From positions 62,001 through 126,000 of the forward strand of contig NZ_CANMPM010000006.1 of assembly GCF_947499845.1 (NCBI RefSeq): a stretch of DNA of 64,000 nucleotides. The letters run 5' to 3'. Under the pieces are notes generated by a model. The model worked only from the letters and a program-made list of their open reading frames with translations, was not told the DNA's origin and did no database searches. How positions within the stretch are numbered: the first letter of the stretch is position 1; every line of letters begins with the position of its first letter. Below, in pieces: positions 27,336-32,668 of this stretch. The DNA is from an uncultured Pseudokineococcus sp. GTDB taxonomy: Bacteria; Actinomycetota; Actinomycetes; Actinomycetales; Quadrisphaeraceae. A program made the translations under genes and the position numbers.

Positions 27336-28007
27336 TCAGACCACCGCGCCGTCGTCGTCGTCGTGGGAGCGCGGGAGGCGTGCCACGAGGACGCCGAAGC
27401 CGCCCACGAAGGCGACCACGGCGGCCGCGACGACGAGGGCGGGGGCGTCCCGCCACACCAGGGCGCACAGCAGGAGCACCGCGGGCCCGGCCACCGCGCC
27501 CGCCCACGCGAGCCGCGTGACGAGCGGGGTCGGCGGCCCCGGCACGGGCTCCGGCGGGGTGTAGTGCTCCTCGCCGTCCCTGTCGGGGGCCCCGCGGCCC
27601 TGCCCGTCGCCCGAGCCCACCGGGGCCGAGCGCCACGGGTCGTCCTCGCCCGGCGCGCGCAGGGGCACGTCGTCCCACCCGCGCGCCACCGGACCTCCGG
27701 ACGCCTGCGGGGTCGTGGGCCCGGGGTCGGGGTCGGGACGAGCGTCGGCCGCGTCCCCGACGTCGGGCCGGGGCTCGGCGGGGCCGGGCCCATCGGTGCC
27801 AGGCCGATCGGTGCCGGGCCGCTCGGTACGGGGCTGGTCCGTGCCGGGCCGGTCGGTGCGGGGCTGGTCCGGGCGGGGCCCGCCCCGCGGGTGCCCGGGC
27901 TCGGCCGCCGGCTCGCCCCAGCGGGCGACGATGTCGGCCCAGGCGGCGTCGACGTCGACCGGGTCCTCGCCGCGACCGCCCGCGGCGTCCTCCGGGCGCC
28001 CGCTCAC
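27336..28007 (-). CDS. Hypothetical actinobacterial protein with C-terminal two-helix membrane domain
   Basis: A 223-residue protein. An N-terminal WADIVARWGEP segment is followed by a long disordered Asp/Pro/Gly/Arg-rich region, part of it made of RPGTD-like pentapeptides encoded by a 15-bp DNA repeat. A conserved-looking EEHYTPPEPVPGPPTPL segment precedes two hydrophobic helices near residues 165-184 and 189-209 and an acidic tail. I recognise the layout from other actinomycetes but no function. GTG 28007 overlaps the esterase stop as GTGA. Confidence 0.75.
   Translation of the reverse strand: MSGRPEDAAGGRGEDPVDVDAAWADIVARWGEPAAEPGHPRGGPRPDQPRTDRPGTDQPRTERPGTDRPGTDGPGPAEPRPDVGDAADARPDPDPGPTTPQASGGPVARGWDDVPLRAPGEDDPWRSAPVGSGDGQGRGAPDRDGEEHYTPPEPVPGPPTPLVTRLAWAGAVAGPAVLLLCALVWRDAPALVVAAAVVAFVGGFGVLVARLPRSHDDDDGAVV
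27791..27880 (-). repeat. Six 15-bp in-frame repeats in the hypothetical membrane protein gene
   Basis: Diverged copies of GATCGGTGCCGGGCC in register from 27791 to 27880; each encodes one pentapeptide such as RPGTD or QPRTE. Confidence 0.85.
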
Positions 28008-28867
28008 GCCACCGCTCCGGTGGACGCCGCTCCGGTGGACGCCGCCCCGGTGGACCGAGCGACGTCGCGGGCCAGCCGCAGGGTCTCGGCGACGACCACG
28101 GGCGCGTCGTGGTCGAGCGTCGCCACGTGGCCGCTGCGCGGGAGGCGGACGTCGCGGACGTCGCGCGAGGAGGTGGCGGTGCGCACGAGGGCGGCGCTGC
28201 GCGGCGGCACGACGCGGTCGTGGGCCGAGGACGCGACGAGCAGGGGCTGCCCCACGCGGGGCAGCTCCTCGCGCACACCGGCCATGAGGCCCACGAAGGA
28301 GGACAGCGCGCGCAGGGGGACGCGGTCGTAGCCCACCTCGGTGCGGCCCTCGAGGACGATGTCGTCGGCGACCCCCGGCACGTCGCGGCGCAGCAGGCGC
28401 AGCAGCGGCAGGGCGACGAGACGAGGGTCGCCGAGGAGGACGGCGGGGTTGACGAGCGCCACCGCGTCGACGGAGGAGGCCTCGTGGACCGCGAGCCGCA
28501 GGGCGAGGGCCCCGCCCATGGACAGGCCGCCCACGACGACGACGTCGCACCGCTCCCGCACCCGCAGCAGGTCGGCCCGGGCCAGGGCGTACCAGTCGTG
28601 CCACGTCGTCCGGTCGAGGTCGGCGACGCTCGTGCCGTGGCCCGGCAGGCGGGGCACGGCCACGTGCAGCCCGGCGGCGGCGAGGGCCTCGCCCCAGGGC
28701 CGCACGGAGGCCGGGCTCCCGGTGAAGCCGTGCAGGAGCAGCACCCCGACCCGGGGGCGGTGCGCCGCGGGCGGGCCCTCCCACGGCTGCGCGCCCGCGA
28801 CGACGAGCGGGTCGGGGGCGGGGTGGCGGCCGCGGCGCCGTCCGGTCCGGGGGTCGCGCAGGGGCAC
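28004..28867 (-). CDS. Alpha/beta hydrolase (carboxylesterase/monoacylglycerol lipase type)
   Basis: A 287-residue serine hydrolase. The oxyanion-hole segment is LLLHGFTGSP, the nucleophile elbow is GGLSMGGALAL, the acid is in SSAHDRVVPP and the catalytic histidine is in RSGHVATLDHD. The pattern matches bacterial carboxylesterases and monoglyceride lipases; no signal peptide is seen. The C-terminus ends in an STGAA repeat encoded by a 15-bp DNA repeat. It is translationally coupled by GTGA to the hypothetical gene downstream. Confidence 0.88.
   Translation of the reverse strand: MPLRDPRTGRRRGRHPAPDPLVVAGAQPWEGPPAAHRPRVGVLLLHGFTGSPASVRPWGEALAAAGLHVAVPRLPGHGTSVADLDRTTWHDWYALARADLLRVRERCDVVVVGGLSMGGALALRLAVHEASSVDAVALVNPAVLLGDPRLVALPLLRLLRRDVPGVADDIVLEGRTEVGYDRVPLRALSSFVGLMAGVREELPRVGQPLLVASSAHDRVVPPRSAALVRTATSSRDVRDVRLPRSGHVATLDHDAPVVVAETLRLARDVARSTGAASTGAASTGAVA
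28011..28055 (-). repeat. Three 15-bp in-frame repeats at the 3' end of the esterase gene
   Basis: ACCGCTCCGGTGGAC, GCCGCTCCGGTGGAC and GCCGCCCCGGTGGAC at 28011-28025, 28026-28040 and 28041-28055. They encode the STGAA-type tail. Confidence 0.85.
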
Positions 28868-28993
28868 GTCGTGATGGTCGCACGCGGCCCGGGTCCCGGC
28901 AGCGCGCTGCTCGGAGCCGGGCGGGTCCGCCGGGGAGCCGGCGGGGACCGGCTCGGGCCGAGCCGGCCGCGGTGCGGCAGCCGCTGCAGCGCC

Positions 28994-28999
28994 TAGAGT
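28994..28999 (+). promoter_or_regulatory. Possible -10 element TAGAGT of the acyltransferase gene
   Basis: TAGAGT lies just upstream of the 26-bp repeat block. If used, transcription would begin near 29006 and the whole repeat array would lie in the leader. Confidence 0.45.
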
Positions 29000-29014
29000 C
29001 CTGCGCGCCCCCGG

Positions 29015-29144
29015 GTGCCGGCAGGCGCCAGCAGGAAGGGGTGCCGGCAGGCGCCAGGAGGGGAGGGTGCCGACCGGCGCCAGCAGGAGGGGGTGCCGGC
29101 AGGCGCCAGCAGGGGAGGGCGCCGACCGGCGTCGTCGGGCGAGG
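29015..29144 (+). repeat. 26-bp tandem repeat, four good copies and one degenerate
   Basis: Units start at 29015, 29041, 29067, 29093 and 29119 with consensus beginning GTGCCGGCAGGCGCCAGCAG and ending GGGAGG. The last copy is diverged and runs into the ribosome-binding site of the acyltransferase gene. The unit contains short palindromes (TGCCGGCA, GGCGCC), so an RNA copy could fold. Confidence 0.9.
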
Positions 29145-29153
29145 GAGGCCGCG

Positions 29154-30056
29154 GTGCTCTACTGGCTGCTCAAGCGGATGGTGCTCGGGCCCCTGCTGCT
29201 CACGCTGTACCGGCCGTGGGTCGAAGGGCGCCACCACGTGCCCGACCACGGCGGGGCGCTGCTCGTCAGCAACCACCTGTCCTTCAGCGACTCCATCTTC
29301 CTGCCGCTCGTGCTCGACCGGCGCGTCACCTTCCTCGCGAAGGACGACTACTTCACCGGCCGGGGCGTGCGAGGCCGGCTCACCGCCGGCTTCTTCCGGG
29401 GCGTCGGCCAGCTGCCGGTCGACCGCTCGGGCGGCGCGGCCGGGCTCGCGTCGCTGCGGACGGGTCTCGCCGTCCTGCGGAGCGGCGAGCTCCTCGGCAT
29501 CTACCCCGAGGGCACCCGCAGCCCCGACGGGCGGCTGCACCGCGGTCGCACGGGTGCCGCGCGCCTGGCCCTGGAGAGCGGCGTCCCCGTCGTGCCCGTG
29601 GCGATGATCGGCACCGACGTCGTCCAGCCCGTCGGGCGCCTGGTGCCGTCGGTCCGTCGCGTCGGGCTGCGCTTCGGCCCCCCGGTCGACCTCTCCCGGT
29701 ACGCCGGCGGGGCGGACGACCGCTTCGTCCTGCGCGCGGCGACGGACGACGTGATGCGGGCGATCATGGCGCTGTCCGGCCAGGAGTACGTCGACGTCTA
29801 CGCCCTGGTGACCAAGGACGCCATGGCGCGCCGCCGCGAGGCCGCCGAGCACGGCCGCGACGTCGACCTGCCGGCCGGCGGCGGGGCCCCGGGGGGCCTG
29901 GCCCCCGACGCCCGGGCCCCGCACGCCCCGGCCCGTGACGCCTCCTCTCCCCACGGCCCGACCGCGCCGGCGTCGGATCCCTCGCCGACCGCGAGCCCGG
30001 CGGCGCCCGACCGGCGCGCCGGGAGGGTGCGGCGCCGGGACCCGCGCGGTCGGTAG
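29154..30056 (+). CDS. 1-acylglycerol-3-phosphate O-acyltransferase (PlsC-like)
   Basis: A 300-residue acyltransferase. The catalytic HX4D motif is HLSFSD in SNHLSFSD near residue 41, the glycerophosphate-binding segment follows in GQLPVDRSGG, and the third motif is YPEGTRSPDG. It would transfer an acyl chain to lysophosphatidate or a related acceptor at the membrane. The Pro/Ala-rich C-terminal about 70 residues are not conserved. GTG 29154 has GAGGGAGG upstream. The TAG stop forms part of the dapA -10 hexamer. Confidence 0.88.
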   Translation: MLYWLLKRMVLGPLLLTLYRPWVEGRHHVPDHGGALLVSNHLSFSDSIFLPLVLDRRVTFLAKDDYFTGRGVRGRLTAGFFRGVGQLPVDRSGGAAGLASLRTGLAVLRSGELLGIYPEGTRSPDGRLHRGRTGAARLALESGVPVVPVAMIGTDVVQPVGRLVPSVRRVGLRFGPPVDLSRYAGGADDRFVLRAATDDVMRAIMALSGQEYVDVYALVTKDAMARRREAAEHGRDVDLPAGGGAPGGLAPDARAPHAPARDASSPHGPTAPASDPSPTASPAAPDRRAGRVRRRDPRGR

Positions 30057-30059
30057 CGT
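30054..30059 (+). promoter_or_regulatory. -10 element TAGCGT of dapA, overlapping the upstream stop codon (leaderless)
   Basis: The TAG stop of the acyltransferase gene is the first half of TAGCGT, which ends 6 bases before GTG 30066. Confidence 0.6.
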
Positions 30060-30065
30060 GCCCCC

Positions 30066-30986
30066 GTGCCGATGACGACCCCGCCCGACGCCCCGAGGAC
30101 GCCCCCGCGACCCTTCGGCGCCGTGCTGACCGCCATGGCCACGCCCCTCGACGCCGACGGGGCCCTCGACCTCGACGGCGCCGCCCGCCTCGCGACCTCG
30201 CTGGTCGACGCCGGCTGCGACGGCCTCGTCCTCAACGGGACGACGGGGGAGTCGCCCACGACGTCCCCGGAGGAGAAGGCGCGCGTGGTGCGCGCCGTCC
30301 TCGAGGCGGTCGGCGACCGCGCCCACGTCCTCACGGGCGCGGGCTCCAACGACACGGCGGGCAGCGTGGAGGCGGCGCGGGCCGCCGAGGCCGCCGGGGC
30401 CCACGGCCTGCTCGTCGTCACGCCGTACTACTCCAAGCCGCCGCAGGAGGGCCTCCTGGCCCACTTCCGCGCGGTGGCGGACGCGACCGGCCTGCCGGTG
30501 ATGGTCTACGACATCCCCGGCCGCACCGCGACGCCGGTCGAGGTGACGACCCTGCGGGCGCTCGCCGAGCACCCCCGCGTCGTCGCCGTGAAGGACTCCA
30601 AGAACGACCTGCTCGCCGCCTCCCAGGTCATGGCGAGCACCGACCTCGCCTGGTACTCCGGCGAGGACGCCCTCAACCTCGCGCACCTCGCGCAGGGCGC
30701 CGCGGGCGTCGTCAGCGTGGTCGCCCACGCGGCGGCGGGCGCCTACCGGCAGATGGTCGACGCCGTCGACGCCGGGGACCTCCCGACCGCTCGGGCGCTG
30801 CACGTCCGGCTGCTGCCGATCGTCGACGCCATGATGACGCGCACCCAGGGCGCCGCCTCGGCCTCGGCCGTCGCGCAGCTGCTCGGTGCCACCCCCCACC
30901 GCACCGTGCGGCTGCCCCTGGTCGCCCTCACCGGCGAGCAGCTGGAGCACCTGCGCGGGGCCCTGACGGAAGCAGGACTCCTGTGA
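30066..30986 (+). CDS. dapA: 4-Hydroxy-tetrahydrodipicolinate synthase
   Basis: A 306-residue TIM-barrel lyase condensing pyruvate with aspartate semialdehyde in the lysine/diaminopimelate pathway. NGTTGESPTT, the catalytic tyrosine in VVTPYYSKP, YDIPGRTA and the Schiff-base lysine in VVAVKDSKND are intact. GTG 30066 fits the leaderless -10 element; ATG 30072 is an alternative. Its stop overlaps the RNase J start as GTGA, a pairing typical of actinomycetes. Confidence 0.95.
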   Translation: MPMTTPPDAPRTPPRPFGAVLTAMATPLDADGALDLDGAARLATSLVDAGCDGLVLNGTTGESPTTSPEEKARVVRAVLEAVGDRAHVLTGAGSNDTAGSVEAARAAEAAGAHGLLVVTPYYSKPPQEGLLAHFRAVADATGLPVMVYDIPGRTATPVEVTTLRALAEHPRVVAVKDSKNDLLAASQVMASTDLAWYSGEDALNLAHLAQGAAGVVSVVAHAAAGAYRQMVDAVDAGDLPTARALHVRLLPIVDAMMTRTQGAASASAVAQLLGATPHRTVRLPLVALTGEQLEHLRGALTEAGLL

Positions 30987-32668
30987 GCCACCCCCACCCC
31001 GAGCTCGCCCCGCCGCCCCCGCTCGCCGACGGCGCGCTGCGCCTGACCGCGCTCGGCGGCCTCGGCGAGGTCGGGCGCAACATGACCGTCCTCGAGGTCG
31101 ACGGCAAGCTGCTCGTCGTCGACTGCGGCGTCCTCTTCCCCGAGGACCACCAGCCGGGCGTCGACCTCATCCTCCCGGACTTCTCCTCCATCGCCGACCG
31201 CCTCGACGACGTCGTGGCGGTCGTCCTCACGCACGGCCACGAGGACCACATCGGCGCGGTGCCCTACCTGCTGCGCCTGCGGCCCGACATCCCCCTCGTG
31301 GGCTCGACGCTGACGCTGGCCCTCATCGAGGCCAAGCTCCGCGAGCACCGGATCCGCCCGTACACGCTCACGGTGCGCGAGGGGCAGACCGAGCAACTCG
31401 GCCCGTTCGCCACCGAGTACGTCGCCGTCAACCACTCGATCCCCGACGCGCTGGCGGTCATGGTCCGCACGGCCGCCGGCTCGGTGCTCATGACGGGCGA
31501 CTTCAAGATGGACCAGCTGCCGCTCGACGGGCGCATCACCGACCTGCGTGCCTTCGCCCGGCTGGGGGAGGAGGGGGTCGACCTCTTCTGCGTCGACTCC
31601 ACCAACGCCGAGGTGCCGGGCTTCACGATGTCCGAGCGCGAGATCGAGCCCTCGCTCGACCGCGTCTTCCGCACCGCCGAGCGCCGCATCATCGTGGCGT
31701 CCTTCGCCTCGCACGTGCACCGCGTGCAGATGGTGCTCGACGCCGCCGCCCGCTCCGGCCGCCGCGTCGCCCTCGTCGGCCGCTCGATGGTCCGCAACAT
31801 GGGGATCGCGGCGGAGCTCGGCTACCTCACGGTGCCGGACGGCGTCCTCGTCGACGTCAAGGAGGTCGACTCCCTCCCCGACGCGCGCACCGTCCTCATG
31901 TGCACCGGCAGCCAGGGCGAGCCGATGGCGGCGCTCTCGCGGATGGCCAACAACGACCACTCCGTGCGGGTCGGGCGCGGCGACACGGTGGTCCTCGCCT
32001 CCTCGCTCATCCCCGGCAACGAGAACGCGGTGTTCCGGGTCATCAACGGCCTCACGCGCCTCGGCGCCAAGGTCGTCCACTCGGGCAACGCGCGGGTGCA
32101 CGTCTCCGGCCACGCCAGCGCCGGCGAGCTCCTCTACTGCTACAACATCGTGCGGCCGAAGAACGTCATGCCGATCCACGGCGAGCACCGGCACCTGCAC
32201 GCCAACGCCGACCTCGCCGTCGCCACCGGCGTGCCGCGCGAGCGCGTGGTCATCGCCGAGGACGGCGTGGTCGTCGACCTGGTCGACGGGGTCGCGTGCG
32301 TCGCCGGCGCCGTGCCGTGCGGCTACGTCTACGTCGACGGCTCGTCGGTGGGCGCCATCACGGACGCGGACCTCAAGGACCGCCGCATCCTCGGTGACGA
32401 GGGCTTCATCTCCGTCTTCGTCGCCGTCGACTCCTCCTCCGGGGCCGTCGTCGCCGGGCCGGAGATCCACGCGCGCGGCGTGGCCGAGGAGTCGGTCGTC
32501 TTCGACCAGGTGCGCGAGCAGGTGGTGCAGGCGCTCGAGCAGGCCGTCGCCAACGGCACCACGGACACCCACCAGCTGCAGCAGGTCGTGCGGCGCGTCG
32601 TCGGGCGCTTCGCCTCGGGGCGCCTGCGCCGCCGCCCGATGATCGTGCCGGTGGTCGTCAGCGCCTGA
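30983..32668 (+). CDS. rnj: Ribonuclease J
   Basis: A 561-residue metallo-beta-lactamase/beta-CASP nuclease. The metal-binding HGHEDH is at 84-89, further ligands are in AVNHSIPD and MTGDFKMD, and the beta-CASP motifs include the terminal PIHGEHRHL histidine. The enzyme combines 5'-3' exonuclease and endonuclease activity in RNA decay and rRNA maturation. It is coupled by GTGA to dapA. A short hairpin follows at 32683-32702. Confidence 0.95.
   Translation: MSHPHPELAPPPPLADGALRLTALGGLGEVGRNMTVLEVDGKLLVVDCGVLFPEDHQPGVDLILPDFSSIADRLDDVVAVVLTHGHEDHIGAVPYLLRLRPDIPLVGSTLTLALIEAKLREHRIRPYTLTVREGQTEQLGPFATEYVAVNHSIPDALAVMVRTAAGSVLMTGDFKMDQLPLDGRITDLRAFARLGEEGVDLFCVDSTNAEVPGFTMSEREIEPSLDRVFRTAERRIIVASFASHVHRVQMVLDAAARSGRRVALVGRSMVRNMGIAAELGYLTVPDGVLVDVKEVDSLPDARTVLMCTGSQGEPMAALSRMANNDHSVRVGRGDTVVLASSLIPGNENAVFRVINGLTRLGAKVVHSGNARVHVSGHASAGELLYCYNIVRPKNVMPIHGEHRHLHANADLAVATGVPRERVVIAEDGVVVDLVDGVACVAGAVPCGYVYVDGSSVGAITDADLKDRRILGDEGFISVFVAVDSSSGAVVAGPEIHARGVAEESVVFDQVREQVVQALEQAVANGTTDTHQLQQVVRRVVGRFASGRLRRRPMIVPVVVSA

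Follow-up and report, generated by a model that had tools for sequence, protein, structure and literature searches.

The question raised by this locus was whether a 26-bp tandem repeat in front of a PlsC-like acyltransferase gene of Pseudokineococcus sp. belongs to the mRNA of that gene, whether it is translated and whether its copy number sets leader structure and translation, as the original prediction had proposed. The following features were located in the window (the whole stretch of DNA that was analysed, 64 kb):

28004..28867, minus strand: divergent alpha/beta hydrolase gene (PF00561, PF12146, PF12697)
28994..28999, plus strand: TAGAGT, putative -10 element of the acyltransferase promoter (recurs in related loci; sole plus-strand TANNNT nearby)
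29005..29012, plus strand: inferred transcript start (G29005 or G29007, from the usual -10-to-start distance) and short leader segment before the array
29013-29038, 29039-29064, 29065-29090 and 29091-29116, plus strand: four well-kept 26-bp units (Tandem Repeats Finder, repeat search, self-match)
29067..29069, plus strand: in-frame GTG within unit 3, possible alternative start, 29 codons upstream of GTG 29154
29117-29142, plus strand: decayed fifth unit, adjoining the ribosome-binding site; its P. marinus counterpart has the equal position and differs by one base
29143-29148, plus strand: Shine-Dalgarno sequence GGGAGG of the acyltransferase, five bases before GTG 29154 (-8.6 kcal/mol with CCUCCU)
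29154..30056, plus strand: PlsC-like acyltransferase, 300 aa, GTG start (PF01553, E 2.2e-25)
30066..30986, plus strand: dapA, next downstream gene (TIGR00674, above cutoff)

The PF01553 match, scored on a longer 329-aa reading of the acyltransferase, bore out at family level the claim that the repeat precedes a lipid-synthesis gene. dapA starts 10 bases past the end of the acyltransferase gene and overlaps by 4 bases the open reading frame 30983-32668, which we take to be RNase J; because of this close spacing and overlap, the array leader could also head a longer operon. TAGCGT at 30054-30059 overlaps the acyltransferase stop codon, lies six bases ahead of the dapA GTG (30066) and looks like a putative leaderless promoter of dapA; the same string is present in two Pseudokineococcus congeners (G002 and G003).

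The array was called by Tandem Repeats Finder at 29013-29131 with periods of 26 (score 161) and 52 (score 203), and a separate repeat search gave spacings of 26, 26 and 26 between copies. Self-match of the array at lag 26 was 0.80, compared with a maximum of 0.52 among 20,000 first-order Markov simulations of 130 bases. The best stretch of the window outside the array (130-base stretches, step 5, periods 20-40) reached 0.71, with a period of 30 near 27761. The predicted 26-bp tandem repeat with four good copies and one decayed copy was confirmed by these results. Its placement between TAGAGT and the ribosome-binding site was also correct, but the coordinates 29015-29144 had been off by 2, the units occupying 29013-29142. 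Head-to-tail units of 26 bp, i.e. longer than 10 bp, are those of a minisatellite or variable-number tandem repeat (VNTR).

Tandem arrays with a score of at least 80 were counted in 364 kb of the genome (window plus 300 kb) and amounted to 49 after merging, the leader array included, which was the fifth strongest; a tandem array as such is therefore nothing special in this genome. Periods were multiples of three in 34 of the 49, so many of the arrays probably lie within genes and the base rate of non-coding arrays is lower; others of the 49 were likewise intergenic by a crude gene call. A search of the window's genome for the unit at ≤3 mismatches gave 4 matches, all within the array, and 3 for the reversed control pattern; with no copies elsewhere at this threshold, the unit did not have the distribution of a dispersed palindromic (REP-like) element. 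No sequence in the window reached the gathering score of an Rfam family, and thus no known riboregulator was found. A separate dispersed repeat family, often with 41-bp spacing, was seen in the window's genome (e.g. L124 4822-4932, L127 4166-4435 and L130 4042-4272); its core GCGAAGGTGACGCCNCCTTCAC had 95 matches at ≤2 mismatches here, 27 in P. marinus, 5 in G003 and 0 in G002, and the reversed control had none.

TANNNT is the actinobacterial -10 pattern, and TAGAGT was taken as a -10 element on the basis of its match to this pattern and its position. Over both strands of the 64-kb window it has a single occurrence, at 28994-28999, where it is the only plus-strand TANNNT within 28868-29154. 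Its recurrence was analysed in 109 acyltransferase loci (the best 80 of at least 478 relatives plus 30 loci from 39 genomes, minus one duplicate record, L083 = L002); these include the window's own locus and near-duplicates (e.g. L015/L091 and L045/L047) and are not independent. Of the 109 loci listed, 52 had an exact TAGAGT within the 260 bases that precede the gene. Control hexamers of identical letters were found in 1.1 loci on average, with AGAGTT, which can overlap TAGAGT, as runner-up (16 loci). TAGAGT on the minus strand, used as reverse-strand control, was found in 26/109 loci; in 17 of these 26 it forms one half of the palindrome ACTCTAGAGT. The distance from TAGAGT to the start in the 52 loci was 25-192 bases (median 57), the longest being those of the window (160) and of P. 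marinus (192). The other 57 loci were without exact TAGAGT, some of them with another TANNNT at a similar position. No -35 element was prominent upstream of TAGAGT, and a sigma-70 and terminator consensus scan of 28700-29300 gave no match. Since it recurs in 52/109 loci and is the sole plus-strand TANNNT of the region, TAGAGT very probably acts as the -10 element for transcription of the acyltransferase gene. With TAGAGT as the -10 element, the transcript would start near 29005-29007 and nearly all of the leader would be repeat; the repeat very probably sits in the 5′ leader of the acyltransferase mRNA.

The position of the translation start was judged by the same comparison. At the aligned acyltransferase start, ATG, GTG or TTG was present in 101 of the 109 loci listed (8/109 without a start codon there), and a Shine-Dalgarno-like site was present at a fitting distance in 89/109. 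The non-triplet period noted earlier was verified: the window's units have 26 bp, the P. marinus array also has 25-bp units and non-triplet indels, and a reading frame is not kept through the units. The proposal that the array is transcribed and untranslated was upheld at the level of comparison, by the recurrence of TAGAGT and the aligned start codons. Partial translation of the array, with GTG 29067 beginning an acyltransferase with a 29-residue N-terminal extension, is quite unlikely. This GTG is in frame, no stop codon interrupts the acyltransferase frame back to 28875, and the predicted Shine-Dalgarno pairing of GTG 29067 (-9.5 kcal/mol) is no worse than that of GTG 29154 (-8.6 kcal/mol; both at spacing 4), but it is the downstream start that aligns with a start codon in the loci listed, 25/26-bp units keep no frame, and the sole in-frame upstream start of P. 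marinus is elsewhere (a GTG at -147 with a Shine-Dalgarno spacing of 0) and begins a different peptide. As an additional start, GTG 29067 is a possible candidate that is not conserved. The label ‘in gene’ given to the leader array by a crude coding test was discarded (frame open to 28875, with a gene caller that picks the longest reading, 29067).

The age of the array was estimated from relatives. The nearest named relative of the acyltransferase among the matches listed was Pseudokineococcus marinus (96% identity, NZ_JABEMA010000200.1). Between the window and P. marinus, identity was 97.0% in the coding sequence and 87.1% in the segment ahead of TAGAGT; the array differed by gains and losses. 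In P. marinus it has equal flanks and is made up of pieces of 25, 25, 21, 24, 16 and 26 bases followed by the last unit, in which one base is different from 29117-29142 of the window; this assembly is a fragmented draft (about 580 contigs), so repeat copies may be miscounted. Unit gain and loss among relatives, as in minisatellites or VNTRs, was thus seen between two species only, one of them represented by the fragmented draft. Thirteen genomes of the family were searched for the unit at ≤2 mismatches: the window's genome had 4 matches and P. marinus 5, all in the leader array, and of the other 11 genomes five had one scattered match each and six had zero. None was found at this threshold in the two other Pseudokineococcus congeners, and the array was not found in their acyltransferase leaders. 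In G003, TAGAGT lies 59 bases ahead of the start codon and the leader is without the array; G002 has an array of another kind, with 13-bp units, which precedes its putative -10 element TACGCT. The G002 array (L085) comprises ~7 copies 104-196 bases upstream of the gene and is unrelated to the 26-bp unit. Leaders were scanned for arrays with Tandem Repeats Finder (score ≥40, 400 bases upstream, 110 records including the window and the duplicate P. marinus record); with the window and P. marinus records set aside, the highest score was 105 (G002, 13/26-bp). At loci with TAGAGT, arrays of other species were situated upstream of TAGAGT (by eye). As the array is present in the window's species and in P. 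marinus and absent from G003, and the G002 array is different, it probably arose on the common branch of the two species that carry it, provided that the assemblies are correct.

We consider the array, with a probability of about 0.6, to be a lineage-specific minisatellite in the 5′ untranslated leader of the acyltransferase gene that has grown by slippage and is mostly tolerated. It would have originated in the ancestor of the window's species and P. marinus and would have grown and shrunk by slipped-strand mispairing or recombination, perhaps aided by G+C-rich units that can form hairpins. Transcription would start ~6-8 bases past TAGAGT, with nearly the whole leader being repeat. Within the mRNA the units would pair with themselves and with one another, leaving the ribosome-binding site about as open as with the last unit alone; a change in copy number would for this reason be mostly tolerated and not regulatory.

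Structure was analysed at the level of the unit and of the whole leader. The unit core GGTGCC-N4-GGCGCC can form a 6-pair RNA hairpin with one G-U pair, and the predicted unit layout is a hairpin followed by a purine-rich linker. The palindromes expected within each unit were accordingly recovered as RNA hairpins, but as DNA the inverted repeat is imperfect. The inverted-repeat core and the closeness of the array to the -10 element would also suit an operator array or road-block, in which a DNA-binding regulator would occupy the units as repeated sites immediately after the promoter. Such a role is very improbable: the DNA palindrome is imperfect in all five units of the window (the mismatch being the G-U pair in RNA), no such array exists elsewhere in the window's genome, and the 26-bp spacing places neighbouring sites on opposite DNA faces.

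The hairpin of unit 1 alone was predicted at -12 kcal/mol, with 4/200 shuffles as good, and linkers were predicted to pair with CCUCCU at three array positions (best -10.2 to -10.3 kcal/mol). Across the seven full-length 26-bp units that were compared (the five of the window and two of the seven P. marinus pieces), 2/12 stem columns varied vs 10/14 other columns (Fisher p 0.008), and both stem changes preserved pairing. The hairpin could thus be under selection; this result is a hint only because the copies are not independent and because five P. marinus pieces were omitted, three with an intact hairpin and two with a broken arm. These properties were counted for a functional leader, in which units of a hairpin and a purine-rich, Shine-Dalgarno-like linker act as ribosome standby modules and copy number is a slow dial on translation. 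Also counted for it were published accounts, as far as the available parts of the sources go, that multi-hairpin leaders are able to act as standby modules (PMC3936740) and that translation can be raised by bulky leader structures (PMC11087576).

We regard this functional leader as rather doubtful. Stability of the whole leader was not unusual relative to shuffles (z -1.47; 18/200 as good), and its best fold was not a row of unit hairpins but had arms paired between neighbouring units. In a standby site, hairpins separated by free linkers would be expected ahead of the Shine-Dalgarno sequence and clear of it; the unit 1 hairpin was stable alone, yet in the whole-leader fold arms were predicted to pair across units. 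One arm of the hairpin is missing from two of the P. marinus pieces, and the leaders of two other congeners are without the array. G-quadruplexes were predicted neither in the window's leader nor in that of P. marinus, and the three-tier pattern was present in neither; the two-tier pattern had 9 overlapping matches in the window's leader. Of the four relatives folded, two array-less ones had a predicted G-quadruplex.

Accessibility of the start region was calculated as the energy needed for its opening (naked-RNA prediction at 37°C; the ranking was nearly unchanged at 28°C). Without units the predicted opening energy was 20.6 kcal/mol. RNA folding of varied unit numbers, which had been suggested as a check on a copy-number effect, gave 13.7-14.2 kcal/mol with the 3′-most one to four units kept and 12.5-15.4 kcal/mol with five to seven units, and so offered the idea little encouragement. 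Over all 16 deletion sets, mean opening energies for zero to four units were 20.6, 16.4, 15.6, 15.1 and 13.8 kcal/mol. The 8 sets that retained unit 4 had 13.7-15.0 kcal/mol at any number of units; the 7 other non-empty sets had 15.9-18.3 kcal/mol. The fall of the mean with unit number is hence due to unit 4, which lies beside the last unit, and in these models unit number as such predicts little of start accessibility, the retention of unit 4 being what mainly matters. Because the opening energy is set mainly by unit 4 and not by number, the proposal that copy number sets leader structure and translation received little support from the models. The native array had an opening energy of 13.8 kcal/mol vs a mean of 19.1 (sd 2.9) for shuffled arrays, i.e. 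the start was easier to open, and the array may keep the start open relative to random sequence. The predicted value for the P. marinus leader was 16.8 kcal/mol; the leaders of 12 chosen relatives ranged from 6.5 to 26.5 kcal/mol (G003, 19.4). For a functional leader it speaks that the start region is harder to open without units and that on average every unit kept helps, and this mean fall, together with the greater openness of the native array than of shuffles and the low variation of the stem columns, counts against the tolerated minisatellite. Against a functional leader it speaks that the number of units has little effect with unit 4 in place, or between five and seven units, and that a higher opening energy is predicted for P. 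marinus, whose leader has more pieces, than for the window (16.8 vs 13.8 kcal/mol). In a further version, which we think unlikely, duplicated modules of a hairpin and a Shine-Dalgarno-like linker, perhaps copied from the gene's own start region, would by their number and order slowly tune translation and rotate extra GTG starts into frame.

The tolerated minisatellite was compared with known systems from the portions of the literature at hand. VNTRs in cis-regulatory regions are described for Mycobacterium tuberculosis (PMC12817950). In common with these as portrayed there, the Pseudokineococcus array has head-to-tail units of >10 bp near a promoter that differ between close relatives of a high-G+C actinobacterium; unlike them, it sits in the leader, past the -10 element, involves no duplication of the promoter and is known from sequence alone. 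In promoter repeat phase variation, what changes is how far apart promoter elements stand or how many regulator sites there are (PMC3899988). The Pseudokineococcus repeat likewise adjoins expression signals, but it is positioned after the -10 element, unlike the cases in the extracts of that source. With structured standby-site leaders (PMC3936740, from the sections available) it shares several possible hairpins upstream of the ribosome-binding site; it differs from them in that the leader was judged by prediction alone and that the predicted effect of copy number is small. If the array tuned translation, it would be a minisatellite acting in an mRNA leader instead of a promoter. It is in addition a candidate marker for telling Pseudokineococcus strains apart, and an example of how a repeat can be located with respect to promoter and start codon by comparison instead of transcript mapping.

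A palindromic variant of the putative -10 region was observed in relatives. The 10-bp palindrome ACTCTAGAGT stands at the TAGAGT position upstream of the acyltransferase in 17 loci, many of them Cellulomonas (L012, L013, L014, L016, L020-L026, L029, L030, L032, L037, L040 and L048). Symmetric bidirectional promoters are known in bacteria, according to the accessible parts of two reports (PMC12825309, PMC10268837). In 17/17 of the ACTCTAGAGT loci a divergent ATG was found 6-7 bases past the minus-strand TAGAGT and headed an open frame (151-222 aa). The arrangement looks as though a single symmetric -10 element drove a leadered gene in one direction and a leaderless gene in the opposite direction.
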